From Bacteroidota bacterium (GTDB taxonomy: Bacteria; Bacteroidota; Bacteroidia; Bacteroidales; VadinHA17), in contig JAKPDL010000056.1 of NCBI GenBank assembly GCA_029552825.1, positions 1 through 39,231 of the forward strand: a stretch of DNA of 39,231 nucleotides, given 5' to 3'. The notes beneath the pieces were generated by a model. That model saw only the letters and a list, made by a program, of their open reading frames with translations. It was not told the origin of the DNA and made no database searches. Every line of letters begins with the position of its first letter. The first letter of the stretch is position 1. Of this stretch, positions 1,093 to 14,668 are shown one piece after another. The position numbers and the translations under genes were made by a program.

Positions 1093-4000
1093 ATGAAAAA
1101 GAAATCTTACCTTTCAGAATTATTAAAAAAGTTCTGCAAGAATTTTTTGCAGAAATTTAAAGCCGGAATTTCATTACTCCTGATTGGAGTAATAACATTT
1201 TTTTCATATGCCTACGGCCAGGACTCAAGTCATAGGCATATTAATACTAAATTTTCCGGCGATTTGCTCTCCCTGGTTACAAAAGATGCCAGAATCTCTT
1301 ACCACCTTAAATATGGTAAACAAACTGCTGAAATAAAAAATGACCAGCAGCAGGTGATTACGGGAAAGGTCACAGATAGCCAGACAGGTGAACCTATGCC
1401 AGGTGTAAACGTCGTCATAAAAGGAACGACTGTTGGAACAACAACAGATGTTGAGGGTAACTTTTCGATTTCAGTCTCCGACAAAAATGCAACTCTTGTA
1501 TTCTCATTCATTGGTTATACTCCACAAGAAATTGCGCTCGCAGGAAGAACCACTCTTAATGTATCACTCGTCAGTGAAACTGTTGGTCTCGAAGAAATTG
1601 TAGTAGTTGGTTACGGAACCCAGCAGAAAAGGACAATATCAGGTGCTATTACAAACATAACGGAAAAGAACTTCAATGTTGGTGTTAACAGAACTGCTGT
1701 CGACATGATACAGGGCAAAGTTGCCGGACTTGTAATAACAAAGTCATCTGGTGATGTTACCGCACAGCAGAGCATGAGGTTGAGAGGAACCTCATCCCTT
1801 ACTGGAAGCAGTGAACCTTTTGTTGTGATTGACGGCGTACCCGGACTGAACCTTAACTCAGTTGCAGCACAGGATATTGAATCCATAAGCATTCTAAAAG
1901 ATGCCTCAGCTGCAGCAATTTACGGATCCCGTTCTGCTAGCGGTGTTATCCTGATCACTACTAAAAAAGGTAAATCAGGTCAATTTACTACTGATTATAA
2001 CGGGTACATTGCCATGGATGTTGTATCAAACAAACCCGACGTTCTAACCGCTGAAGAATGGCGTACCTACTGTCAGCAAAACAATCTATCGTACCAGACC
2101 TTCGACAAAGGTGCAAATACCGACTGGTTTGGCGAGATTATGAGAACAGGGATAACACAGAATCATGATCTCTCATTCTCAGGTGGCGGAACAAACAATA
2201 ATTACAGAGTATCAGTCTCATATCTCGACCAGGAAGGTGTTGTAAAGGATAATTACCAGACAAGGCTCAATATGCGTTTTTCAGTGACGCAAAAAACCCT
2301 TAAGGACAGATTATCCCTTACTCTTATTGGGGCAATTACACAAAGAGATTATCAGCCTTCCGACACAAGGAACTTCGTTCTTGCATATAACATGGTTCCA
2401 GCGTACCCTGTGAAAAATGATGATGGTACCTGGTTCGAAAGCACAGATTACGATCAGGGTAACCCTGTTCATAATATAGAGCTTAATTATGACAGGCGCA
2501 AAAACAATATAAGTTATTTCAACCTGAAAGGCGAACTTCAGATAATCAAAAACCTCTTTTTATCGGTAAACGCATATTTCCAGAGACAAACAAATGACAG
2601 GAGCCGTTACTGGAATTCAGAAACTGAAAGAGGAAGAAACGAATATGGTGTTGCACTTCGTTCATTCAACAACGACAATACCAAACTTCTTGAGTCAACA
2701 ATTAACTACACAATTAGAACAGGAGGCCATAATATAAACCTCCTTGCCGGTACATCATTTGAGGACAATTATTATCAATTTGCACAGGCACAGAATCGCA
2801 AATTTGTGACGAACCTCTTTGGTGCAAATAATTTATCGGCTGGAGAAAATATGCAGGTTGGCGATGTATCATCAAGCGCAAGTATGAACAGGCTCCTTTC
2901 ATATTTTGGTAGAGTTAATTACACATTGAACGACCGTTATATAGTTTCTGCCACATTACGTCGTGACGGCTCCTCAAAATTCGGGGAGAATCATAAATGG
3001 GGCACCTTCCCGTCAATATCTGCTGCATGGAGAATAGGAGAAGAATCATTCATGCAGGGATTAAGCAATATTTTTGATGAACTAAAACTCCGTGCAGGTT
3101 ATGGGCTCTCAGGAAACCAGGATGGCCTCGCCCCATATCAGTCTATGCAGTTATACGGAGCTTCAGGTACCTATTACGATAACGGAGCATGGCACACTGC
3201 TTATGTGGTAAGCCAGAATGCAAATCCCAACCTGCAATGGGAACAGACGGCAATGGCAAATGCAGGTATTGATTTCAGTATTCTCAATGCAAGACTTAAC
3301 GGCACAATCGAATATTACAACAAAATAACTTCGAAATTGCTTTATACATATTCAGTGCCTGTACCGCCATTCCTTTATGGTTCAATGGTTGCCAACGTGG
3401 GTTCAATGGAAAATAAGGGAATAGAGTTTTCACTAACTGGAGACATTATCAGAAGCCGTGATATAAGATGGACTGTTTCATTGAATGCCGCCCACAATAA
3501 GAATAAGATTACAAAACTCTCAGATGAAGAGTACACAACACAGTCAATAAGAACAGGAAGTGCGTGGGTCAGAGGAGGATCTGCAAACACCACACATATT
3601 GTCGAAGAAGGGAAACCTGTCGGACAATTCTTTGGACTGGAATGCTTTGGACTTGATGAGAATGGCCTTTATAAAATCAACGACATGGTTGATGGACAAC
3701 CAGGTGTGACTGTTTCTGATTATACATATATTGGTAATGCACAGCCAAAATTAACATACGGGATTGATAACTCTTTCAGCTACAAGAATTTTGAACTAAC
3801 CTTTTTCTGGCGTGGTGTCTATGGAAATGATGTACTCAATTTCTCAAAAATGTCGTACGCAACAACACAATGGCTCCCTGGTGCAAACGTCCTAAAGGAT
3901 GCTCTAACTTTAGGTCTTAAACAGAGTCCCTTTTACAACAGTTTCTATATTGAAAAAGGTTCTTTTTTAAGACTCGAAAATATTAACCTTGCCTATTCAT

Positions 4001-4188
4001 TTAATCCCAGACTTCTAGGAATAAAGTCCTTCAGGGTGTATTTCACTGGAAATAACCTGGTTCTTTTAACAAAATATAAAGGCGTGGATCCTGAAGTACC
4101 AATGAGTGGGCTCGATCCAGGAGTTGAAGGAAGGGAATATTACCCGAAATCCAGGACATACCTGTTTGGTATAAATGTAAGTTTTTAA
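1093..4188 (+). CDS. SusC-family TonB-dependent outer-membrane transporter
   Basis: Imports oligosaccharides or other large ligands across the outer membrane, energised by TonB, with SusD as a lid. Length is 1031 aa, usual for the family. Order: basic N-region and hydrophobic signal core (residues about 24-42), a 44-residue stretch of unknown role (about 44-87), a carboxypeptidase-regulatory-like domain (about 88-163, with GKVTDSQTGEPMPGVNV), a TonB-box-like EEIVVVGYGTQ (167-177), a plug with GKVAGLVI, VIDGVPG and DASAAAIYGSRSASGVILIT, then the barrel, ending YLFGINVSF. susD follows after 20 bp, so the two form an operon. The substrate cannot be read from sequence. The ATG at 1093 is followed by a Lys-rich signal peptide, which supports this start. 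Confidence 0.95.
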   Translation: MKKKSYLSELLKKFCKNFLQKFKAGISLLLIGVITFFSYAYGQDSSHRHINTKFSGDLLSLVTKDARISYHLKYGKQTAEIKNDQQQVITGKVTDSQTGEPMPGVNVVIKGTTVGTTTDVEGNFSISVSDKNATLVFSFIGYTPQEIALAGRTTLNVSLVSETVGLEEIVVVGYGTQQKRTISGAITNITEKNFNVGVNRTAVDMIQGKVAGLVITKSSGDVTAQQSMRLRGTSSLTGSSEPFVVIDGVPGLNLNSVAAQDIESISILKDASAAAIYGSRSASGVILITTKKGKSGQFTTDYNGYIAMDVVSNKPDVLTAEEWRTYCQQNNLSYQTFDKGANTDWFGEIMRTGITQNHDLSFSGGGTNNNYRVSVSYLDQEGVVKDNYQTRLNMRFSVTQKTLKDRLSLTLIGAITQRDYQPSDTRNFVLAYNMVPAYPVKNDDGTWFESTDYDQGNPVHNIELNYDRRKNNISYFNLKGELQIIKNLFLSVNAYFQRQTNDRSRYWNSETERGRNEYGVALRSFNNDNTKLLESTINYTIRTGGHNINLLAGTSFEDNYYQFAQAQNRKFVTNLFGANNLSAGENMQVGDVSSSASMNRLLSYFGRVNYTLNDRYIVSATLRRDGSSKFGENHKWGTFPSISAAWRIGEESFMQGLSNIFDELKLRAGYGLSGNQDGLAPYQSMQLYGASGTYYDNGAWHTAYVVSQNANPNLQWEQTAMANAGIDFSILNARLNGTIEYYNKITSKLLYTYSVPVPPFLYGSMVANVGSMENKGIEFSLTGDIIRSRDIRWTVSLNAAHNKNKITKLSDEEYTTQSIRTGSAWVRGGSANTTHIVEEGKPVGQFFGLECFGLDENGLYKINDMVDGQPGVTVSDYTYIGNAQPKLTYGIDNSFSYKNFELTFFWRGVYGNDVLNFSKMSYATTQWLPGANVLKDALTLGLKQSPFYNSFYIEKGSFLRLENINLAYSFNPRLLGIKSFRVYFTGNNLVLLTKYKGVDPEVPMSGLDPGVEGREYYPKSRTYLFGINVSF

Positions 4189-4208
4189 TCCATAAAATTT
4201 TTAAGTAT

Positions 4209-5750
4209 ATGAAAAAGAATACATTATATATTACTGTGATATCGCTTCTGATGATGCTTTCAACAAGTTGTACTGATTGGCTGGATGAAAAAGTATATAC
4301 CCAGTTGCCTGTTGCAAGCTACGGAAAAACAGAAGCTGAGGTAAATTCCCTGATTGCACCGATTTATACCGGACTCAGAACAGTTAATAACCCTATTACA
4401 ATAGCCGTAAACTCTTCCGATATGGCAATTACTCCCACAAGAAAAGGTGGTGACTGGTGGGATGGCGGAGTTTTTAAGGAATTGAGACTCGGTACCTGGA
4501 CTCCGATTACAAGTCATATCAGAAGTTTCTATAACTCGGTTATGCAACGTATTTCACAATGTAATCAAATTCTTTATCTTATTGAGAATTCAGAAGGAAT
4601 ATCCGACAAAGAACCTTATATCTGTCAGGTAAGGGCAGCACGGGCATTCTGGTATTACATTCTATGCGATTATTTCGGAAACGTTCCTATAGTCACTGAT
4701 TTCACAGACCTTTCAAAACCTGCAACAAAAACACGAGCAGAGGTTTTCAACTTCGTGGTTTCCGAACTTAATGATATTAAGGATAAAATCAGGTCAGATG
4801 TAGGACCAGCCAGTTACGGAAAATTCACAAAAGGTGCCGTATATACAATACTGGCAAAAATGTACCTCAACGCTCTTGAATGGAATCCTGACGGAGGACC
4901 TAAATGGCAGGAATGTATCGACGCATGCGATGTTGTTATGAGTCTTCCATATAAACTTGTAAGTAACTGGTACGATAATTTCAAGGTTTTTAACGAAAAT
5001 TGTCCTGAACATATCCTTACTGCAATAAACAGTCCCTCAGCAGGGATGGGAGTTCTGGCCTATACACTGCATTATCTGGATTATAAAGCCCTTGGTACTA
5101 CAAGACGTGGGAACAACGGACTTTCTGCCATGCCAGATTATGTAAGACAATTTGATCTTGATGACAAAAGAAGAGGTGATGATCTCGATCACAAACCCGG
5201 CAGCTTTCTTATAGGCCCAATGAAAGATTTAAGCACCGGACAAATAATTATGACTGCACATGGACGGCCTTTAATCCATACTATTGACATAACAATGAAG
5301 TATGGAATTGATGCTGATGGATGGGGTCAGGTTGAACAGGAAGATGGTGCCAGATGCTTCAAATGGGAAATAGAGAAAGGCGTTAATTACATGCAGAATG
5401 ACTGCGCAATCTTCAGACTGGCTGATGTGTACCTGATGAAAGCTGAATGCCTTGTAAGATTAGGACAGAACAACGAAGAAGCTACAAGGCTTGTGAATGA
5501 GATAAGAAAGAGGGCTTTCGACGATCCTGCCAAACTCAAAACCAGCGTTACTCTTGATGATATTTATCTTGAACGCAGACTTGAGCTAGCATGGGAGTCA
5601 TATTGCCGCCAAGATATGATACGTTTCGGAAAATTCTGCGATCCGATACCAGGATGGAGGGGCGCAATTCCTGAATACCGGAAACTTTTCCCCATACCAC
5701 AAACTGCAATCGATGCCAATCCCCTGCTAAAACAAAACCCGGGTTATTAA
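4209..5750 (+). CDS. SusD/RagB-family nutrient-binding outer-membrane lipoprotein
   Basis: Surface lipoprotein that caps the SusC channel and binds the ligand. It has 513 aa. A lipoprotein signal peptide ends in LSTSC with the lipidated Cys at residue 21. The TPR-like SusD fold is supported by RAARAFWYYILCDYFGNVPIVT and TRAEVFNFVVSEL in the N-terminal half and by FRLADVYLMKAECLVRLG plus LDDIYLERRLELAWES near the C-terminus, which ends PLLKQNPGY as is typical. It is cotranscribed with susC and followed by a strong terminator, so the operon probably ends here. The ligand is unknown; the nearby DUF1080 protein hints at a sugar derivative but this is inference. Confidence 0.94.
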   Translation: MKKNTLYITVISLLMMLSTSCTDWLDEKVYTQLPVASYGKTEAEVNSLIAPIYTGLRTVNNPITIAVNSSDMAITPTRKGGDWWDGGVFKELRLGTWTPITSHIRSFYNSVMQRISQCNQILYLIENSEGISDKEPYICQVRAARAFWYYILCDYFGNVPIVTDFTDLSKPATKTRAEVFNFVVSELNDIKDKIRSDVGPASYGKFTKGAVYTILAKMYLNALEWNPDGGPKWQECIDACDVVMSLPYKLVSNWYDNFKVFNENCPEHILTAINSPSAGMGVLAYTLHYLDYKALGTTRRGNNGLSAMPDYVRQFDLDDKRRGDDLDHKPGSFLIGPMKDLSTGQIIMTAHGRPLIHTIDITMKYGIDADGWGQVEQEDGARCFKWEIEKGVNYMQNDCAIFRLADVYLMKAECLVRLGQNNEEATRLVNEIRKRAFDDPAKLKTSVTLDDIYLERRLELAWESYCRQDMIRFGKFCDPIPGWRGAIPEYRKLFPIPQTAIDANPLLKQNPGY

Positions 5751-5795
5751 TAAAGTTTTTTATAGCATAAGCTACAGAAACTCTTAAAAATGATT

Positions 5796-5845
5796 AAAAA
5801 GTGCGTCTTCTTTCACATTTTTAAAAATTATAAGACGCACTTTTT
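5796..5845 (+). terminator. Strong terminator after susD
   Basis: A perfect 14-bp inverted repeat, AAAAAGTGCGTCTT (5796-5809) against AAGACGCACTTTTT (5832-5845), with a 22-base loop and a T tract running on to 5850. The A tract on the left arm would let it work in both directions, but the only gene ending nearby is susD. Confidence 0.9.
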
Positions 5846-5910
5846 TATTTTTGTAATGAATGAAATCAATAATTAAAAACTGTTAATTAAATTCTTAAAA
5901 ACCCCTGGAT

Positions 5911-6714
5911 ATGAAAAAACTTTTCACAATCAGTTTAATGCTGTTAGCCATTGGTGTTGTAACAGCACAGCAACAGACAAGGCCTGCACAGCAAGGTCAG
6001 CCTGGACAGCTGCCTCAGCCGGCAAGGATGACACCCGAGATGACAGAAATCTGGGAGCCTGAAGTTCCGATTGTTGAACCCGGTGCCCAACCTGGAATGC
6101 CACCTTCCGATGCAATAATCCTGTTCGACGGCTCAGAAGCTCTTCTTAACAAGGAATGGGAAGACGCCAGAGGTAACCCAACCAAATGGATTGTTAAAAA
6201 TGGTGAACTAGTATGCGTTAAAGGCTCAGGTCCAATCAAGACAAAAAGGAAATTTACAGACTTCCAGCTCCATATCGAATGGAAAACCCCTTCGGAGGTT
6301 ACCGGCGAAGGTCAGGGCAGAGGCAACAGCGGAGTCTACCTCCAGGAACTATACGAGGTGCAGATACTCGATAGCTATAATAACCGTACATACAGAAACG
6401 GACAGGCAGGCAGTATCTACAAGCAATACGCACCTCTGGTTAATGCAAGCAGAAAACCCGGTGAATGGCAGACCTACGACATTATTTACACTGCACCCCG
6501 GTTTGGCAACGACAGCACTTCATATTTTACCCCTCCACGAGTGACAGTCCTGCATAACGGAGTTCTGATTCAAAATAATGTAAGTCTGAGAGGACCAACA
6601 CTCTATATAGGCATACCTGAATATTCTATCAAAAAACACGGACCGGGCTCCATACTGCTGCAGGACCACGGTAACCCGGTTGCCTTCAGAAATATCTGGG
6701 TAAGGGAATTGTAA
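5911..6714 (+). CDS. Secreted DUF1080 protein (3-keto-disaccharide hydrolase-type domain)
   Basis: The 267-aa product has a signal peptide with predicted cleavage after VVTA (about residue 19), then a Gln/Pro-rich linker (about 20-60) that would hold the domain away from the membrane. The rest (about 65-267) is a concanavalin/LamG-like DUF1080 domain: AIILFDGSEAL, WIVKNGELVCVKGSGPIKT, FTDFQLHIEWKTP, GNSGVYLQELYEVQILDSY, GEWQTYDIIYTAPRF and a C-terminal PVAFRNIWVREL. Members of this family are annotated as 3-keto-disaccharide hydrolases and are often found near SusCD or oxidoreductases. Here it is separated from susD by a terminator, so it is probably transcribed on its own. The domain is certain; the substrate is inferred from the family. 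Confidence 0.88.
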   Translation: MKKLFTISLMLLAIGVVTAQQQTRPAQQGQPGQLPQPARMTPEMTEIWEPEVPIVEPGAQPGMPPSDAIILFDGSEALLNKEWEDARGNPTKWIVKNGELVCVKGSGPIKTKRKFTDFQLHIEWKTPSEVTGEGQGRGNSGVYLQELYEVQILDSYNNRTYRNGQAGSIYKQYAPLVNASRKPGEWQTYDIIYTAPRFGNDSTSYFTPPRVTVLHNGVLIQNNVSLRGPTLYIGIPEYSIKKHGPGSILLQDHGNPVAFRNIWVREL

Positions 6715-6729
6715 TATTATCTGGAAATA

Positions 6730-6816
6730 TTCACCACAGAGAACACAGAGGTACACAGAGAATCATACAATATTACTTTGTACCTCTCTGTGCCTTCTCC
6801 GTGCTCTCTGTGGTAA
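6730..6816. repeat. CACAGAG-rich palindromic repeat between convergent genes
   Basis: An imperfect inverted repeat. The left arm (6730-6760) carries CCACAGAGAACACAGAGG and the right arm (6783-6816), read on the other strand, carries CCACAGAGAGCACGGAG. Each arm is itself built from repeated CACAGAG words, with about 22 bases between the arms. It lies between the stops of the DUF1080 gene and the DUF5916 gene and could fold in transcripts from either side as a terminator. It resembles REP-like intergenic palindromes, which is recognition from memory and not a database match. Confidence 0.75.
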
Positions 6817-6833: not shown

Positions 6834-9005
6834 TCAATTAAACCAGTACGTCAGCTTAATGACAATCCCGTTATTCTTACTTTTGAAATCATTCGTAAAT
6901 GAATTGTTTGTATATACAATGAAGAGATCCGATACAGGTGCAAAACGCCATTGAAACCTGATATTGGTATTAATATTATCAATCTGATTATTGTACTGAA
7001 CAAACGTTGTAAGAAATATTTTATCAGTAAAGGTTATATCGAGGCGCGGACTTATCAGAATAAGTTCTGCACTACTGTATGGCTGCGGCAATGTAATATT
7101 GTTATAATCAGCCGATACCGAGATGCTGCCATATGGCTGGAACCTGTATCCCACCGAACCATTCACACTAAACCTTCTGCCATTGAAATACGTCCCGTAA
7201 CCGGTTGAAAGAGAATATGTAAAAAGTCTCCTTGAATCCGAAGAGAATCCTGCTTCGCCACTAACCCAGTTGTATGCCTCCCCTGCCTTGAGAGTTTCTC
7301 CTCCAGTATTCGTTGGATCATAATCACGGTCGAGCAAAATATACTCTTCTGCTATTTCAAAATCAAGCTGGCTCCTGTCCCTGAAACCAATTGAATATCC
7401 AAAATTTGTCTCCCTGTCAGTTACCCCGAAAGCGGGGTCAGTTATCATGTCAAATTTTACACTCGGCCCATGACTTAGAATTCTGGTTTGTGATGGATAA
7501 AAAGTATATCGTAGTGACGGAGACACTTCAAAATAGCCTTTTCTTCTGATATATCCAACCTCTGCCACATAATCATCTCCCACCCATGCAGTAACAAGGC
7601 CTGCTTTTAGATATCTTGACGAATAATTTAGTTCACCTGCAGCGGCAGCATCATCACCAGAAGCACCGGGATAAAACGATTGATGGTAAAAAGCTTTACC
7701 TGACCATATATTATCCGGACTTGCCAGATTATATTCCAGACCAGCCACACGGTTATAATCGTAACCCCTGTAGAGCGAATCGTTGTAACTTCCTGTGACC
7801 TCTTTGTTAATAAAAAATCCTGTTATACTCGACCTGCTGAACACCTGACGTTGTAGTGCCACAACTGCAAAATTACTTGCGGGTATAATATCCTTTTCAC
7901 CGGTCTGAATGTCCATCAGTCCAACCCTCCATCTGTCGCCTATTTTACCGCTTAATCTCAAACCTGCATTCACAGGAACGTTAAGGCCTATCCTCCTTGA
8001 GAAAAAAGGCCTGGCATTGCTGTTTCCAAGATTTGCAAAGAGGTCGCTGTTTTCAAGAAAATATTGCCTGCGCTCAGGAAAAAAAAGCTCAAACCGTTGA
8101 AGATTAGTAACCTGGCGGTCTTCTTCAACCTGTGAATAATCAGGATTAACCGTTACATCCAGATTGAGCGATGTTGAAAGCATCACCTTTGCATCAAAAC
8201 CTGCACCCCAGTCTTTTACAGTATTTTCTTCGGGAATATTTTCCTTAATGATCTTTCCAGTTACATAAGGAATTACCGAATAATTAAATCCTGATTTTTC
8301 AAGTGGCTTATCCCATATCAGTGTTCCGGTATAGGTAAGGTCGCAATGGCTGAACTGTCTTGGCATTGGTGCCCATGCCGATTTTTCGTTTGTTTTCAGA
8401 TCAAGCCTGCCAAAATTTACTCCCCATTCGTTGTATCCTTTTATATATCTCAGGCTACGGAAAGGTATCGCCATCTCAACAACCCAGCGGTCGTCATAAT
8501 TCTTAACTGCCGACCTCCATTTCGCATCCCAGTAAATATTGAATCTGTTTCTTTCATATCCCAGATGATCATATTGTGCACCCGCAGGAGAAACATAAAA
8601 ACCGAAACCGTTTGTCTGGTCATTGAACGGATCGAAAAATACTGCAAAACTATCATTCCCCATAAAAGTAAAATCCCTGCGTAATGATTGAACTGGTCTT
8701 TTCCCCGGAGTAGGATCATAACAGATTGCACCCACATAAATATTATTCTTATCATATGCGATCATTGCAACAGTCTGAGCTATTGCATACCCGGTGTCCG
8801 TTGGTGTAACACGTTGAAAATTAACTGCTTTTTCGACAATCTGCCAGATATTCTCATCAAGTAACCCGTCAATTGTAATTTTTTCTTCGGTATATGTAAT
8901 GTGTATCCTGTACTTATCGCGATTAACAGCTTTATTCTGAGCCGATAGCATTAAATTACATAACAGAAAATAAAATAATGCAATAACAGGTTTATATAAA
9001 TTCAT
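6834..9005 (-). CDS. Outer-membrane protein with CBM9-like domain and DUF5916 barrel
   Basis: A 723-aa surface protein. The signal peptide ends near LMLSAQ (about residue 22). Residues about 33-240 form a family 9 carbohydrate-binding-like domain: ITIDGLLDENIWQ, VAMIAYDKNNIYVGAICYD, DSFAVFFDPFNDQTNGFGFY and WVVEMAIPFRSLRY are all typical. The rest is a DUF5916 beta-barrel: LDVTVNPDYSQVEEDRQVTN, FELFFPERRQYFLENSDLF, then alternating strands ending VIKLTYWFN. The family is widespread in Bacteroidota, and its function has not been firmly set; glycan or metal-linked surface binding is often proposed. It is transcribed alone, convergent with the DUF1080 gene. Domain assignment is strong, role is open. 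Confidence 0.9.
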   Translation of the reverse strand: MNLYKPVIALFYFLLCNLMLSAQNKAVNRDKYRIHITYTEEKITIDGLLDENIWQIVEKAVNFQRVTPTDTGYAIAQTVAMIAYDKNNIYVGAICYDPTPGKRPVQSLRRDFTFMGNDSFAVFFDPFNDQTNGFGFYVSPAGAQYDHLGYERNRFNIYWDAKWRSAVKNYDDRWVVEMAIPFRSLRYIKGYNEWGVNFGRLDLKTNEKSAWAPMPRQFSHCDLTYTGTLIWDKPLEKSGFNYSVIPYVTGKIIKENIPEENTVKDWGAGFDAKVMLSTSLNLDVTVNPDYSQVEEDRQVTNLQRFELFFPERRQYFLENSDLFANLGNSNARPFFSRRIGLNVPVNAGLRLSGKIGDRWRVGLMDIQTGEKDIIPASNFAVVALQRQVFSRSSITGFFINKEVTGSYNDSLYRGYDYNRVAGLEYNLASPDNIWSGKAFYHQSFYPGASGDDAAAAGELNYSSRYLKAGLVTAWVGDDYVAEVGYIRRKGYFEVSPSLRYTFYPSQTRILSHGPSVKFDMITDPAFGVTDRETNFGYSIGFRDRSQLDFEIAEEYILLDRDYDPTNTGGETLKAGEAYNWVSGEAGFSSDSRRLFTYSLSTGYGTYFNGRRFSVNGSVGYRFQPYGSISVSADYNNITLPQPYSSAELILISPRLDITFTDKIFLTTFVQYNNQIDNINTNIRFQWRFAPVSDLFIVYTNNSFTNDFKSKNNGIVIKLTYWFN

Positions 9006-10327: not shown

Positions 10328-10861
10328 TTACAATAAATTATGCTCTTTCAACCATGCCATCAGGTCATCATCAGCTGAAGCAACCATGCTTCCGTAAACA
10401 GCTAAACCGGGGAGCACTGTGGCATCCGGACAAAGTTTTTTAATATCACTCTCGCTTCTGCCCATACCACTACCCTCGTGAGTGCAAAATGGAATTATAG
10501 TTTTCCCTGAAAAATTGTATGATTCTAGAAACGTAAAAACCGCCATTGGAAAGGTGTTCCACCAGTTGGGATAACCAAGATAAATGACATTATAATCGTC
10601 CATGTTTCTGACAGTCTCGCTTAATTCGGGCCGGGCATTCTGGCGTAATTCAACCCTGGCAATTTTTGTTGCTTCATTATAATCTGATGGATAAGGCTTT
10701 ACAGTTTTGATTTCAAATAAATCCCCTCCTGTTAAGCTTTGTATTTTCTTTGCTAAAACTTCAGTATTGCCGATTGTCAGGTTTTTAATTTTTCCGTTGA
10801 AATAATTTTCGCCTTTACGTGAAAAATATGCGATCAATATTTTTCTATTATCATTTGCCAT
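10328..10861 (-). CDS. Flavodoxin family protein
   Basis: A 177-aa flavodoxin-fold protein that probably binds FMN and carries electrons. The N-terminal phosphate-binding region is ILIAYFSRKGENY, then NTEVLAKKIQSLTGGDLFEI, YNVIYLGYPNWWNTFPMAVF for the ring-binding loop, and TIIPFCTHEGSGMGRSE. I choose the ATG at 10861 (MANDNRKI); a longer reading from a TTG at 10882 adds seven poorly conserved residues. It lies 46 bp downstream of the aldo/keto reductase gene on the same strand, a pairing that suggests a shared redox or stress role. It is longer than electron-transfer flavodoxins of the short-chain type and closer to the flavodoxin_4-like group. Confidence 0.85.
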   Translation of the reverse strand: MANDNRKILIAYFSRKGENYFNGKIKNLTIGNTEVLAKKIQSLTGGDLFEIKTVKPYPSDYNEATKIARVELRQNARPELSETVRNMDDYNVIYLGYPNWWNTFPMAVFTFLESYNFSGKTIIPFCTHEGSGMGRSESDIKKLCPDATVLPGLAVYGSMVASADDDLMAWLKEHNLL

Positions 10862-10907
10862 ATTTAAAATTTTGTATTTCAAACATACAGGCCTTCATCT
10901 TTGTTTT

Positions 10908-11915
<1,008 letters not shown>

Positions 11916-12004
11916 TCAACTTCTTATATTCAATATCGACTGTAAAATTGCATAATTTCCTGTTTATCCTGTAAAATTCTATACAGAGTATTCGTATTTT
12001 TTAT

Positions 12005-12151
12005 TTCCATTACGACGGAGGTGTTCAATATGCTTGCAATGACTTTGCAAATCTGCTTTCTTCATGCAAACTAGTGGAAAGAAGCATGAGTCGGAAAGGT
12101 GACTGTTGGGATAACCCGGGAGCGGTAAACTTTTTTAAAACACTCAAATAA
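12005..12151 (+). pseudogene. Remnant of an IS3-family transposase (OrfB C-terminal part)
   Basis: Forty-eight codons in one frame read FHYDGGVQYACNDFANLL, then SMSRKGDCWDNPGAVNFFKT, then LK and a TAA. This is the rve integrase-core segment around the second catalytic Asp (HSDRGxQY in intact proteins) and the SMSRKGxCWDNAxxESFF box leading to the catalytic Glu. Here HSDRG has become HYDGG and the Glu-containing ESFF is VNFF, so it could not be active. A stop cuts it off before the usual C-terminus and there is no start. The match to the IS3/IS150 type is by motif only. Confidence 0.8.
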
Positions 12152-12180
12152 AGACGATTATGCTCTTTACATTTTTCTAT

Positions 12181-12258
12181 TTAAACAGCCGTGCCCTGGC
12201 TAATACAATCAACGTTATAGAAAATCCAACAGATCAAAATAAGAATAACAACTTTCAT
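12181..12258 (-). pseudogene. 25-codon ORF, truncated product of a broken cassette
   Basis: Starts with ATG at 12258, 20 bases past core site A on the same strand as the other cassette genes, and stops at 12181. The peptide (MKVVILILICWIFYNVDC, then ISQGTAV) looks like a signal peptide with nothing behind it. I read it as the 5' stub of a third cassette gene whose body and own attC were lost near the IS3 remnant. It could be a genuine tiny membrane peptide, which I think less likely. Confidence 0.4.
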
Positions 12259-12277
12259 TGTGCTGTTTTTTTTTAAT

Positions 12278-12342
12278 GTGCCTGACGGTCCGGCGTAAAG
12301 ATTAGTAAGTGTTCCCCGACGAGGCACCGGCCATGTTATGCG
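12278..12342 (-). repeat. attC-like site A
   Basis: A 65-base imperfect palindrome with end boxes CGCATAAC (minus strand, starting at 12342) and GTCAGGCAC (ending at 12278). Inside, GGCCGG near one end faces CCGGACC near the other, and GTGCCTCGTCGG partly pairs with the end box. The size fits attC sites (usually about 57-141 bases). The last box has GTCAGGC where GTTAGGC would be expected. It lies 16 bases past the stop of the 106-aa ORF. Confidence 0.6.
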
Positions 12343-12358
12343 TTCGTGTTTTAATTTT

Positions 12359-12679
12359 TTAATTACTTGTTAGTCTTGGTATTAAAAATCCAAGCAGACC
12401 CCCTAGAATCAAGGTCATTACAAAAATGGGAATTAAGGATTTGGGTTCTTTCCATCCAATAAGTACTGCACAGGGAGTTAAAACAAGGAAAGCAATCAGG
12501 ATGCCTTTTAAAATGGGATTCATGTTTAAGTTAATAGTGGCAATAAAAAAGCCAACGATTACCCACATCAAAAATGCTGAGATATTTGCATCCCGAGTCA
12601 ACTTTTTAATGATCATTGGTGTCACGTCTATAACTCCGGCAGCAATACCTGGAATTATTCCGATAATGATTGTTTTCAT
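12359..12679 (-). CDS. Small integral membrane protein, cassette-borne
   Basis: A 106-aa, very hydrophobic protein with about four membrane segments (roughly residues 3-20, 32-51, 57-75 and 81-101) and short charged loops (KKLTRDANIS, GWKEPKS). I recognise no family and no catalytic motif. The ATG at 12679 starts MKTIIIGIIPG and is 51 bases past the end of site B; the stop is 16 bases before site A. This tight fit makes it the sole gene of a cassette. Cassette genes are commonly orphan membrane proteins, so no function is offered. On the opposite strand a longer ORF overlaps but it runs through the palindrome and looks like a shadow. Confidence 0.75.
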   Translation of the reverse strand: MKTIIIGIIPGIAAGVIDVTPMIIKKLTRDANISAFLMWVIVGFFIATINLNMNPILKGILIAFLVLTPCAVLIGWKEPKSLIPIFVMTLILGGLLGFLIPRLTSN

Positions 12680-12729
12680 GTTTGGGTTTTTATGTGGCTA
12701 TTATCATTGTGCAGGAATGTTTTACATGA

Positions 12730-12899
12730 CGCATAACGGCCCGGCAATATGGGGAGGTTGTGTTGGTTTGAGAATGGAGGCTGTGACCACAAAAGCTTCT
12801 TTGAGGCAGGGTACTGGCACACAACCGTAATGAACAAACCATGACAATTTGTCCCGAGACTTCGGGAAACAACTTACCCATATTGTCCGCGTTAGTGGC
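12730..12899 (-). repeat. attC-like site B
   Basis: A 170-base imperfect palindrome with end boxes GCCACTAAC (minus strand, starting at 12899) and GTTATGCG (ending at 12730). The outer arms pair over about 25 bases: GGCAATATGGGGAGGTTGT against GACAATATGGGTAAGTTGT, with bulged bases near the core boxes as in attC structures. Further in, GGTTGTG (about 12757) can pair with CACAACC (about 12820), and GTCCCGAGACTTCGGGA is a hairpin of its own. It is longer than most attC sites, which is the main reason for caution. Confidence 0.6.
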
Positions 12900-12928
12900 T
12901 GTTATATTTTCATAGGATCAATTTTTAT

Positions 12929-13528
12929 TCATAGAGATGGGTAGAATCTGGGGGGAATTACATTATGAAATAATAACCCTGCAAATCCCACACTTAATGA
13001 AAAGATGTTACCAGAGATAGAATTGTCATTGTGATTGTCTTTTAAATTTAGCGTATGATAACCTCCCTCAAAGACTAATCCGATGTGTGATTTGACAGGG
13101 ATAATCATACCAAAGCCAAAAAATATATCATATCCTGAAGCATTAGCATAATCAAGACTGATTTCATAACGACGTATTCCTAAGTCAAGAAAAGGGTAAG
13201 CTATACTTTGAGCGTTTCCAAACACATAACCCATTTGGGGACCAAAGCCAGTGGAATTAGATTTATAATTTTTTGTTGACTCATTTGAAAATTCAATTCC
13301 ACCTCCAATAAAGAAATTCTTAAAGATAAAATAATTGATATTTGCTGCTAAGTTTATGATTTTTGCATTATTACCACCGGGATCCACGAAAAGATCACCT
13401 CCCTGACTCAAATAACTGCCTAATCCAGAAATGATTTTTGCATTCTTATCGATAGCATACGTTTGTGCTGAAACGGAAATGCAAAGTCCAAAAAAATAGA
13501 AGATTAAAAGTAAAGCTTTGTTTCTCAT
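12929..13528 (-). CDS. Putative outer-membrane beta-barrel protein, cassette-borne
   Basis: A 199-aa protein with a signal peptide (MRNKALLLIFYFFGL, cleavage after SVSA, about residue 21). The rest alternates short hydrophobic strands and polar turns with many Gly and aromatic residues (FIGGGIEFSNES, GFGPQMGYVFGNA, YDIFFGFGMIIPV, IGLVFEGGYHTLNL, FSLSVGFAGLLF), as in small porin-like or PorT-like barrels of Bacteroidota. No specific family is recognised. The start follows core site C by 63 bases and the stop precedes site B by 30 bases, so it is the gene of one cassette. More AT-rich than the housekeeping genes to the right, which fits acquisition. Function unknown. Confidence 0.75.
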   Translation of the reverse strand: MRNKALLLIFYFFGLCISVSAQTYAIDKNAKIISGLGSYLSQGGDLFVDPGGNNAKIINLAANINYFIFKNFFIGGGIEFSNESTKNYKSNSTGFGPQMGYVFGNAQSIAYPFLDLGIRRYEISLDYANASGYDIFFGFGMIIPVKSHIGLVFEGGYHTLNLKDNHNDNSISGNIFSLSVGFAGLLFHNVIPPRFYPSL

Positions 13529-13590
13529 GATATTATAATTTATATAGAATGTTTTTATATTTAAGTTTATGTTTGGTGTACGTATAAATG

Positions 13591-13599
13591 GCCACTAAC
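13591..13599 (-). other. Cassette core site C (GTTAGTGGC)
   Basis: GTTAGTGGC on the minus strand is the exact complement of the first box of site B, so it would be the 5' boundary of the cassette carrying the 199-aa gene. Directly beyond it, CACTAA (plus strand 13594-13599 region) and TTAGTG form a short hairpin, but no full attC palindrome is visible, so the preceding site seems truncated or decayed. Confidence 0.5.
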
Positions 13600-13957
13600 T
13601 TGTTTTTAGTGATATCAAAAATAATTAAAAAGGTTGAATCAGAGTAGAAAGCGTCATGTATTATCCTTTTCCTTGCTCCTTTTACCTTTTACCTTTTACC
13701 TTTTCACTTTCCCCTTCCCCCGGGTATGCTTCCGCCCAGTCAGTCACAGTGAAAAACCCTGCTATCGAAATCTGAAAATTCCAATATTACTGCATCTGAC
13801 AAAACCACTACCTGAGATTTTCTAAAATAGAAAATAATTAAAAAAACAAATCAATTAATAACATTTATTAAATATAACCATTTCATTATAAAAAAATTAT
13901 TGAACCTGGCGTAAGCCGCCTCCTGAGTTAAAAAAATCTCCTGAACCATACAAAAAC
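13600..13957. other. Gene-free spacer at the outer edge of the cassette array
   Basis: About 360 bases with no credible gene. It holds a 7-bp tandem repeat (13678-13704) and AT-rich sequence. A 63-codon ORF across it reads low-complexity Leu/Phe/Thr from the tandem repeat and is rejected. Confidence 0.6.
13678..13704 (+). repeat. Tandem repeat of CCTTTTA, 3.9 units
   Basis: Units of CCTTTTA begin at 13678, 13685, 13692 and 13699, the last one interrupted after six bases. The flanks (TCCTTTTCCTTGCT, and C/T runs after) are decayed versions, so a longer pyrimidine repeat has eroded here. Confidence 0.85.
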
Positions 13958-13991
13958 AATAAAGCCCGGCATTTCCTGCCAGGACTTTATT
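13958..13991 (-). terminator. Terminator-like hairpin past the tRNA/GIY-YIG unit
   Basis: AATAAAG-CCCGGCA faces TGCCAGGA-CTTTATT with a five-base loop; the stem has one mismatch and one bulge. On the minus strand it is followed by GTTTTTG. It would end minus-strand transcripts coming through tRNA-Met and the GIY-YIG gene. Confidence 0.65.
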
Positions 13992-14082
13992 GTAGCGAGA
14001 GAGGGGCTTGAACCCTCGCGCTCTAACCACCTGTATGGAAAATACAAAAAAATCCTGCGCTCTATCCACATAGACCTGAGAA
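13992..14082 (-). pseudogene. Decayed tRNA-like sequence, anticodon arm missing
   Basis: The 27 bases 13992-14018 are identical to 14391-14417, the T arm and acceptor 3' strand of the tRNA-Met gene. The next 15 bases (14019-14033) equal 14439-14453, part of its D arm. The 21 bases between, which hold the anticodon arm, are absent. Beyond, 14053-14082 resembles another D arm (GATAGAGCGCAGGA on the minus strand). No functional tRNA can fold from this. It is either a deleted tRNA duplicate or the scar of an insertion at the tRNA 3' end. Confidence 0.65.
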
Positions 14083-14086
14083 ACAT

Positions 14087-14353
14087 TCAACTATTTAAGG
14101 CCTTACCTTTTCCCGCAATAAGCGATTCAATATATTTCCTGCTTTTCATCCGCTTGATCTGATTCTCCCTTAAAATAGCTTCTGCCCTGCTTGAAAATTC
14201 CTCAACATAAACAAGCTCCCATGGCTTCCCCCTCCTGGTATAATTCGTAGCCCCCAAATTGTGCTTAACCAACCTCTCCTGTGGATTCCTGGTATACCCA
14301 ACATAATACCTGTCAAGTATTGAACTGTAAATTATGTAAACAAAAAAACGCAC
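14087..14353 (-). CDS. Small GIY-YIG nuclease-domain protein (UPF0213/YhbQ type)
   Basis: An 88-aa stand-alone GIY-YIG domain. VYIIYS and YYVGYT take the places of the GIY and YIG motifs; the conserved Arg is in NPQERLVKHN, then TRRGKPWELVYVEEF and the Glu-bearing SSRAEAILRENQIKRMKSR complete the fold. Stand-alone members of this family are nucleases of unclear cell role. The start is a GTG at 14353, 38 bases past the tRNA-Met 3' end on the same strand. It lies between tRNA-Met and a partial copy of that tRNA, a layout that suggests arrival by insertion at the tRNA. Domain certain, role uncertain. Confidence 0.88.
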   Translation of the reverse strand: MRFFVYIIYSSILDRYYVGYTRNPQERLVKHNLGATNYTRRGKPWELVYVEEFSSRAEAILRENQIKRMKSRKYIESLIAGKGKALNS

Positions 14354-14391
14354 GAAAAAAGCAGCTAATTACTCTTTATACTTAAATCTCG

Positions 14392-14465
14392 TAGCGAGAG
14401 AGGGGCTTGAACCCTCGACCTTATGATTATGAATCATACGCTCTAACCACCTGAGCTATCTCGCC
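14392..14465 (-). tRNA. tRNA-Met (anticodon CAT)
   Basis: A complete cloverleaf can be folded on the minus strand. The acceptor 5' strand GGCGAGA (14465-14459) pairs with TCTCGCT, with one G-T pair at the first position and discriminator A at 14392. The D arm includes AGCTCAGGTGGTTAGAGC, the anticodon arm TATGA-TTCATAA-TCATA gives CAT, and the T arm is GAGGGTTCAAGCCCCTC. CCA is not encoded, so it depends on the CCA-adding enzyme, whose gene is in this window at 31396. Acceptor sequence argues for elongator Met and not initiator; a tRNA-Ile2 with modified C34 cannot be excluded. Confidence 0.93.
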
Positions 14466-14487
14466 ATAAATATTTCTTCTTATTTCA

Positions 14488-14513
14488 TTGAACCCTCGCG
14501 CTTTAACCTCCTG
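14488..14513 (-). repeat. Second tRNA-derived fragment with the same anticodon-arm deletion
   Basis: This 26-base stretch matches 14008-14033 with two mismatches, and, like it, joins the T-arm sequence (TTGAACCCTCG) straight to D-arm sequence (CGCTTTAACC) with the anticodon arm left out. It lies 22 bases upstream of the tRNA-Met gene, so related fragments sit on both sides of the tRNA and the GIY-YIG gene. Confidence 0.6.
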
Positions 14514-14668
14514 CCCCTTCAATCCTTATACCACCGCAATGTTCAAAACCAGAGTCGTTCAAAACGGGTGCAAATATAACTGTTTTGGTGGATTTAATCA
14601 ACAAGATTTTTTGTTTTGATAATTTTTTCTATATTGCAATTTGATGAGCCTTTAGACAAGAAAATAAC

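Follow-up and report, generated by a model that had tools for sequence, protein, structure and literature searches.

A small two-cassette array in a Bacteroidota genome and its probable assignment to an integron variant with an I2-less integrase

The window analysed here, a stretch of 39,231 nucleotides from a draft Bacteroidota genome (237 contigs, 97.6% complete), most probably carries a small, outlying array of two cassettes at an attI-like sequence, part of an integron variant whose integrase lacks the I2 segment and whose recombination activity we infer. It is very likely that the cassettes belong to an integron-like system, and likely, given the linkage of arrays to such integrases and the absence of another candidate, that an I2-less integrase moves them. 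The initial annotation had read the locus as an array of integron-type cassettes with no integrase. The cassette type, the lack of an integrase gene at the locus and the correspondence of each 5′ box to the cassette's own R'' all stand. For the genome the reading was incomplete: contig C76 encodes a candidate tyrosine recombinase that is followed by an attI-like site and an array, this enzyme is non-canonical, decay has affected the second palindrome, and what lies in front of the first window cassette resembles an attI and not an attC.

Cassettes of the window and their copies in a second species

The features of the locus are the following, L178 being a locus of genome G016 from another species.

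13600-13613, minus strand: attI-like sequence ATCACTAAAAACAA, abutting the first GTT box (matrix from 23 integrase-adjacent attI sites)
13591-13599, minus strand: 5′ edge box of cassette A, GTTAGTGGC, the insertion boundary; complements 12891-12899, and identity with the L178 copy ends here
12738-13599, minus strand: cassette A (ORF and its own attC-like site); 12867-13599 is 98% identical to L178 4658-5390
12929-13528, minus strand: ORF of cassette A, 199 aa, OMP_b-brl outer-membrane beta-barrel family (Pfam PF13505, E 1.5e-7)
12735-12893, minus strand: attC-like site of cassette A, 159 nt from AAC to GTT; fold z -3.68, stem with bulge
12891-12899, minus strand: R'' box of cassette A, GCCACTAAC, pairing with 13591-13599
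12730-12737, minus strand: 5′ edge box of cassette B, GTTATGCG, pairing with 12335-12342
12359-12679, minus strand: ORF of cassette B, 106 aa, without Pfam match; 12346-12759 is 85% identical to L178 1404-1820
12335-12342, minus strand: R'' box of cassette B, CGCATAAC, pairing with 12730-12737
12278-12334, minus strand: decayed rest of the attC-like site of cassette B; fold at shuffle level, no second GTT box seen

The box positions of the initial annotation were confirmed on the minus strand, where GTTAGTGGC (13599-13591) is the exact complement of GCCACTAAC (12899-12891) and GTTATGCG (12737-12730) pairs with CGCATAAC (12342-12335). The ORFs, both on the minus strand, end 29 nt (ORF A) and 16 nt (ORF B) before their R'' boxes, as had been noted. 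Their description as orphans does not apply to ORF A, which matches the Pfam family OMP_b-brl; a Pfam search with ORF B gave no match.

It had also been argued that unrelated repeats would not pair twice. Paired boxes alone are near chance level: GTT-box pairs 300-900 nt apart numbered 34 in the window for boxes of 8 nt against a shuffle mean of 18.7 (30 shuffles, range 4-36), and 12 for boxes of 9 nt against a mean of 5.0 (range 0-14). The argument does hold for the whole chain of box, matching box, stem and next box, which occurs once in the window (visible from both strands) and was found in 3 of 60 shuffled windows (mean 0.05). Only the first of the two long palindromes was borne out. At 12735-12893 the fold had a z-score of -3.68, with none of 200 shuffles as good, and formed a stem with a bulge, in line with the folding check that had been proposed. 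The palindrome at 12278-12342 folded with a z-score of 0.43, and 129 of 200 shuffles were as good; by eye, no second GTT box was seen at the expected position and the R'' half alone was intact. The window thus holds one good attC-like site and one half site.

In cassette A, the attC-like site carries a one-base bulge (A) on the R''-L'' arm. Its halves match sites on C76 and in the integrase-linked arrays L092, L095 and L096, and about one-third of it matches C76 with 94% identity over 54 bases. The covariance model R1, which was built from short sites, misses the window's own sites, that of cassette A included. An Rfam scan of 11400-14600 reached the gathering score for a tRNA alone and left the attC-like sites unmatched. 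Near the array, partial copies of tRNA-Met at 13992-14018, 14391-14417 and 14488-14513 flank a GIY-YIG ORF (14087-14353, minus strand); 27 of their bases are identical to the gene and a stretch shows 92% similarity to a further 26, and they possibly represent an insertion scar. At the related locus L181, a GIY-YIG match likewise adjoins tRNA-Met.

Comparison with related genomes, which the initial annotation had proposed as a check, revealed the same cassettes in G016 in another order and context and with an exact box boundary. When 60 genomes of the genus were searched with the cassette A protein, identity was 96% in G016, 53% in G030 and 34% in G007. At the DNA level, window positions 12867-13599 and L178 positions 4658-5390 are 98% identical over 733 bases, and the identity ends at the AAC/GTT boundary, base 13599. 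At this GTT, 98 of 100 bases agree inside the cassette and 12 of 40 outside it (upstream), where, judged by sequence, G016 has the end of an attC and the window an attI-like stretch. Cassette B is also present in L178, with 85% identity over 417 bases (window 12346-12759, L178 1404-1820), and between the two cassettes L178 contains other box-bounded units, among them a MazF-like toxin gene. Core proteins encoded beside the window locus are 68% (START), 74% (LptF) and 91% (RibBA) identical to those of G016, the last value being not far under the 96% of the cassette A protein, which weighs against our preferred reading. An empty site could not be demonstrated in the relatives: the START-side tRNA-Met was found in 10 of 12 stretches, but none of the 12 showed the aldo/keto reductase gene that borders the locus on its other side.

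A further observation counts against it. On the 3′ side of cassette A, where window 12867-12899 was set against L178 4658-4690, the identity spans R''-L'' (~33 bases) and is gone in the hairpin tip, so that the tips of the two copies are wholly different despite 98% identity elsewhere. This is unlike a site that always travels whole; exchange or replacement of the hairpin tip may take place without the rest of the cassette.

The C76 integrase and its family

A PF00589 search of the window's contig gave no match, and three matches were found in the genome: the 534-aa tyrosine recombinase encoded on C76 and two Xer-like proteins, of which one scored over the cut-off for XerD and the other just under that for XerC. 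On C76, the recombinase gene, an attI-like site and a cassette array follow each other on the same strand, with the GTT of the attI-like site 90 nt past the end of the integrase gene. Cassettes whose box pairs extend 7 bases beyond GTT were found at 3945-6080, 6198-6807, 7018-7867, 10384-11628 and 11908-13732. Counted from attI, five of seven cassettes pair well and those starting at 7986 and 13808 pair poorly; the same stretch holds a few further pairs of 6-7 bases that are chance-like in appearance. An automatic site detector recovered part of the C76 sites, and a count of box pairs on the reverse strand is no control because such pairs are symmetric. The search for related palindromes elsewhere, proposed with the original reading, thus had a positive outcome. 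As in a CALIN, no integrase lies beside the cassettes of the window or of L178 in G016; unlike a CALIN, the window genome has a candidate integrase elsewhere and the window array begins at an attI-like sequence. The sole match to the integrase family in G016 is weak (E 2.8e-33) and is taken to be a Xer protein.

Compared with the Vibrio IntI4 integrase, the C76 enzyme has 43 residues fewer at the position of the IntI-specific segment (about 42 residues). The spacing between the conserved Lys and Arg residues is 67-71 residues in 91 proteins of the family, for part of which arrays were demonstrated, and 109 residues in 22 of 22 canonical IntI proteins. Because the IntI-specific segment is absent, the C76 enzyme is not a canonical IntI; its score against TIGR02249 was 186.6, with a cut-off of 265. 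In a phylogenetic tree, 12 canonical IntI proteins formed one clade (100/99) and the I2-less integrases in the tree fell outside it. Of 200 bootstrap trees, 26% recovered a single origin of the I2-less integrases, and the tree allows both one clade and several.

The C76 integrase has an N-terminal extension of ~230 residues, and its gene is transcribed towards its own attI and cassettes. The integrase of Treponema is reported as intI and hence presumably canonical. Transcription of the integrase gene towards attI is known from Treponema integrons, according to the accessible part of PMC3607928. For the N-terminal part of the enzyme family studied here, a structure model (mean pLDDT 71.4) showed a similar order of strands and helices at residues 3-70 and 160-229. 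The idea that these are HARP-like repeats was dropped: Pfam and PDB sequence searches gave nothing taken as relevant (best PDB E 0.0073), an internal-repeat comparison gave nothing, and the fold search scarcely covered that part. At G066:C96, the loci L060 and L035 are tandem tyrosine recombinases, one with paired attI and attC downstream. Several draft contigs (e.g., those of L093, L104, L118 and L160) end within ~150 bases past the integrase, and repeated attC-like sites could be the cause of such breaks.

The system resembles canonical integrons (class 1 IntI1, Vibrio IntI4) in its cassettes with one or a few ORFs (in one case none), its paired GTT/AAC boxes, its hairpin sites of variable length, the position of attI by the integrase and a catalytic domain alignable at ~30% identity. 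It differs from them in its integrase, which is about 42 residues shorter between Lys and Arg, carries an N-terminal extension in the C76 type and lies outside the IntI clade, and in that most short sites have a fixed A.C mismatch and no extrahelical base.

Linkage, mobility and architecture of the sites

One scan of named genomes found 68 loci of the integrase family, mostly in Bacteroidota MAGs; the isolates with the family are members of Lunatibacter, Pleomorphovibrio, Lunatimonas, Algoriphagus, Brumimicrobium, Dyadobacter, Spirosoma, Flectobacillus, Cyclobacterium and Siphonobacter. At 57 of these loci, the 258.8 kb lying downstream of the integrase contained 66 sites, compared with 11 in the 422.3 kb on its upstream side; downstream on the opposite strand there were 13. 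Among the 35 loci with at least 1.5 kb of downstream sequence, 25 had a site and 10 had none, and a GTT within 900 nt that pairs with an R'' was found in 22 and not in 13. Of 44 pairs of consecutive sites, 23 had an R'' that fitted the cassette's own 5′ edge at 5-6 of 6 positions, compared with at most 7 in 1000 shuffles and with 3 of 44 for the own R' of the same site. Arrays in which R'' corresponds to the cassette's own 5′ edge were thus found, though some cassettes are unpaired; in some of the 21 pairs that failed, an intervening site was probably missed. The detector listed 40 sites in 12 arrays and 0-2 in shuffled arrays; it also gave 10 on the reverse strand. The sites are near-palindromic.

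The attI motif derived from the 23 integrase-adjacent sites is roughly ATAAACNAGTT, with A at position -8 in all 23. On this matrix the GTT at window position 13599 ranked third of 1411 GTTs with a score of 7.7, which is lower than that of 19 of the 23 training sites; the sequences compared are CACTAAAAACAAGTTA in the window and CGCTAAAAACAAGTTA at the C76 attI. Traces of mobility were also found on the Chryseobacterium plasmid NZ_CP041688.1, which encodes an integrase of the I2-less family and carries a 172-bp unit in triplicate: one copy sits at attI and the other two each follow an attC end. No ORF is visible in this unit. In pairwise comparison, 172, 171 and 171 of 172 positions are identical, and in the flanks 8, 13 and 20 of 30 bases agree upstream and 14, 13 and 17 of 30 downstream.

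Short sites are 123-127 nt long, and 30 of 32 were aligned. Their stem comprises 17 base pairs, 16 of them with compensatory changes; a hairpin with R and L stems is supported by this covarying stem and by the fold of the first window site, and not by that of the second. One stem position is A.C in 29 of the 30 aligned sites. The top strand of the stem holds 50 A.C and 14 G.T pairs, so that most wobble pairs lie on the bottom strand, and the bottom strand folded more stably in 26 of 32 short sites (p 6e-4), 20 of 26 long sites and 64 of 87 overall. At the eighth base past GTT, 23 well-paired cassettes have A in R' in 23 cases and C in R'' in 20, again a top-strand A.C. A bulge was absent from 30 of 32 short sites, and a one-base bulge on the 5′ arm was present in 15 of 26 long sites. 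The window site, with its one-base bulge, is of the long type. We had considered that the whole site family lacks extrahelical bases, which is true for the short sites and refuted by the long sites and by that of the window. According to the available portion of PMC2727003, that arm bears extrahelical bases in canonical attC sites, whose central spacer is unpaired. Since a canonical-site detector listed at least three sites in only 1 of 12 canonical neighbourhoods (L210, three sites, each with a one-base bulge), our internal comparison with canonical attC has a slim basis.

Candidate enzymes and significance

According to the proposed mechanism, the 534-aa C76 integrase, made elsewhere in the genome, would act on the window cassettes. 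It would recognise the folded single strand of each cassette's attC-like hairpin, presumably the bottom strand, and join the hairpin at the GTT triplet to a double-stranded attI-like site, typically ending AAACNAGTT. The cassette would be cut inside the R' box and the remainder of the box would land at the 5′ edge, which would make this edge match the R'' of the same cassette. The window cassettes may have been inserted at the attI-like sequence in trans, as a secondary site, or left there after loss of an integrase. That the integrase catalyses cassette recombination is suggested by the traces such events would leave, namely the identity switch at cassette A and the 172-bp repeats.

A bolder proposal, which we consider a serious contender and put forward tentatively, is that of a separate, deep integron lineage of the Bacteroidota, whose XerA-like integrase, devoid of I2, captures cassettes as folded single strands. 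Strand choice at short sites would then operate through the fixed top-strand A.C, which becomes a G.T wobble on the bottom strand, and not through extrahelical bases. I2 would be either a later refinement of one branch, or the integron lifestyle would have had a second origin. The part of PMC4792948 available describes I2 as accommodating extrahelical bases and as having no known counterpart elsewhere; it also imagines that a Xer-like ancestor gained this domain. A search of the open PMC literature (subscription papers and preprints being outside its scope) found no description of I2-less integrons.

It is improbable that an ordinary IntI with I2, missed by the assembly or residing in neighbouring organisms, moves the cassettes. 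Of 296 genomes from the phylum, 84 do encode a canonical IntI over the NCBIfam cut-off, and CALIN cassettes are described as accessible to IntIs from outside (PMC9668308, as far as its accessible text goes). However, only one of the 84 genomes belongs to the window's class, 4 of 146 relatives encode such a protein and none was found in the window's own genome (97.6% complete), yet R1 matched short sites in 89 of the 146 relatives, the own genome included (E up to 0.01). In a sample of 292 genomes from the phylum, R1 also matched 147 (E up to 1e-5), with 54 of 69 in the window genome's class, among the matches listed. The 240 kb around 12 canonical IntI genes yielded only four weak R1 matches (E 1e-4 to 0.06), and the arrays begin downstream of I2-less integrases. 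Bacteroidota are counted among the integron-bearing phyla (PMC8618304, PMC9668308), a complete Bacteroidetes integron was reported with IntegronFinder 2 in Salinibacter ruber (PMC9024848), and IntegronFinder identifies IntI through PF00589 combined with a profile specific to IntI (PMC9668308), all according to the accessible portions of these articles. Our proportion of canonical IntI in the phylum exceeds what the part of the IntegronFinder 2 article available suggests; class and phylum limits may differ.

At the level of whole genomes, the association between short sites and the integrase family is weak. Both were present in 49 of the 146 relatives, the integrase only in 21, sites only in 40 and neither in 36 (odds ratio 2.1, p 0.04, non-significant at stricter thresholds), partly because R1 misses long sites, and we do not use this association as support. 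Among the matches listed, the sites of G197, G202 and G204 lie 2-27 kb downstream of the integrase on the same strand and those of G257 downstream of a fragmented integrase, and G331 has one site 4 kb from an integrase fragment and others at least 35 kb from a whole integrase. In G183 and G152, again among the matches listed, the sites are on the 5′ side of the integrase and on the other strand, and in G413 sites are present and the integrase search gave a Xer-like match alone.

Still less probable is an insertion of the cassettes by housekeeping XerC and XerD, in the manner of phages entering via folded single-stranded sites, with the C76 enzyme as a bystander. The Xer recombinases XerA, XerC and XerD act on dif-like double-stranded sites. 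To our knowledge, no cassette arrays occur beside XerA, XerC or XerD. XerC-like and XerD genes are present in the genome, and for CTXphi such an integration without I2 or extrahelical bases is described in the accessible part of PMC4792948; against this, the arrays and the attI motif lie downstream of I2-less integrases, in a scan that was centred on integrase loci. Finally, we see hardly any room for dispersed palindromic repeats (terminators or miniature elements) beside ordinary genes with boxes pairing by chance, an explanation that would fit the near-shuffled number of box pairs and the unfolded second palindrome but is contradicted by the exact identity switch at the box, the same 172-bp cassette at three places, an R'' pairing over 44 pairs that beats shuffles and compensatory changes in 16 of 17 stem pairs.

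A cassette system moved by an integrase without the I2 segment, as we favour, would evade integrase searches built on that segment. It would also offer a natural test of the purpose of I2, and the question is testable, because the integrase family occurs in bacteria that can be cultured (Algoriphagus, Lunatibacter, Spirosoma, Dyadobacter and others).
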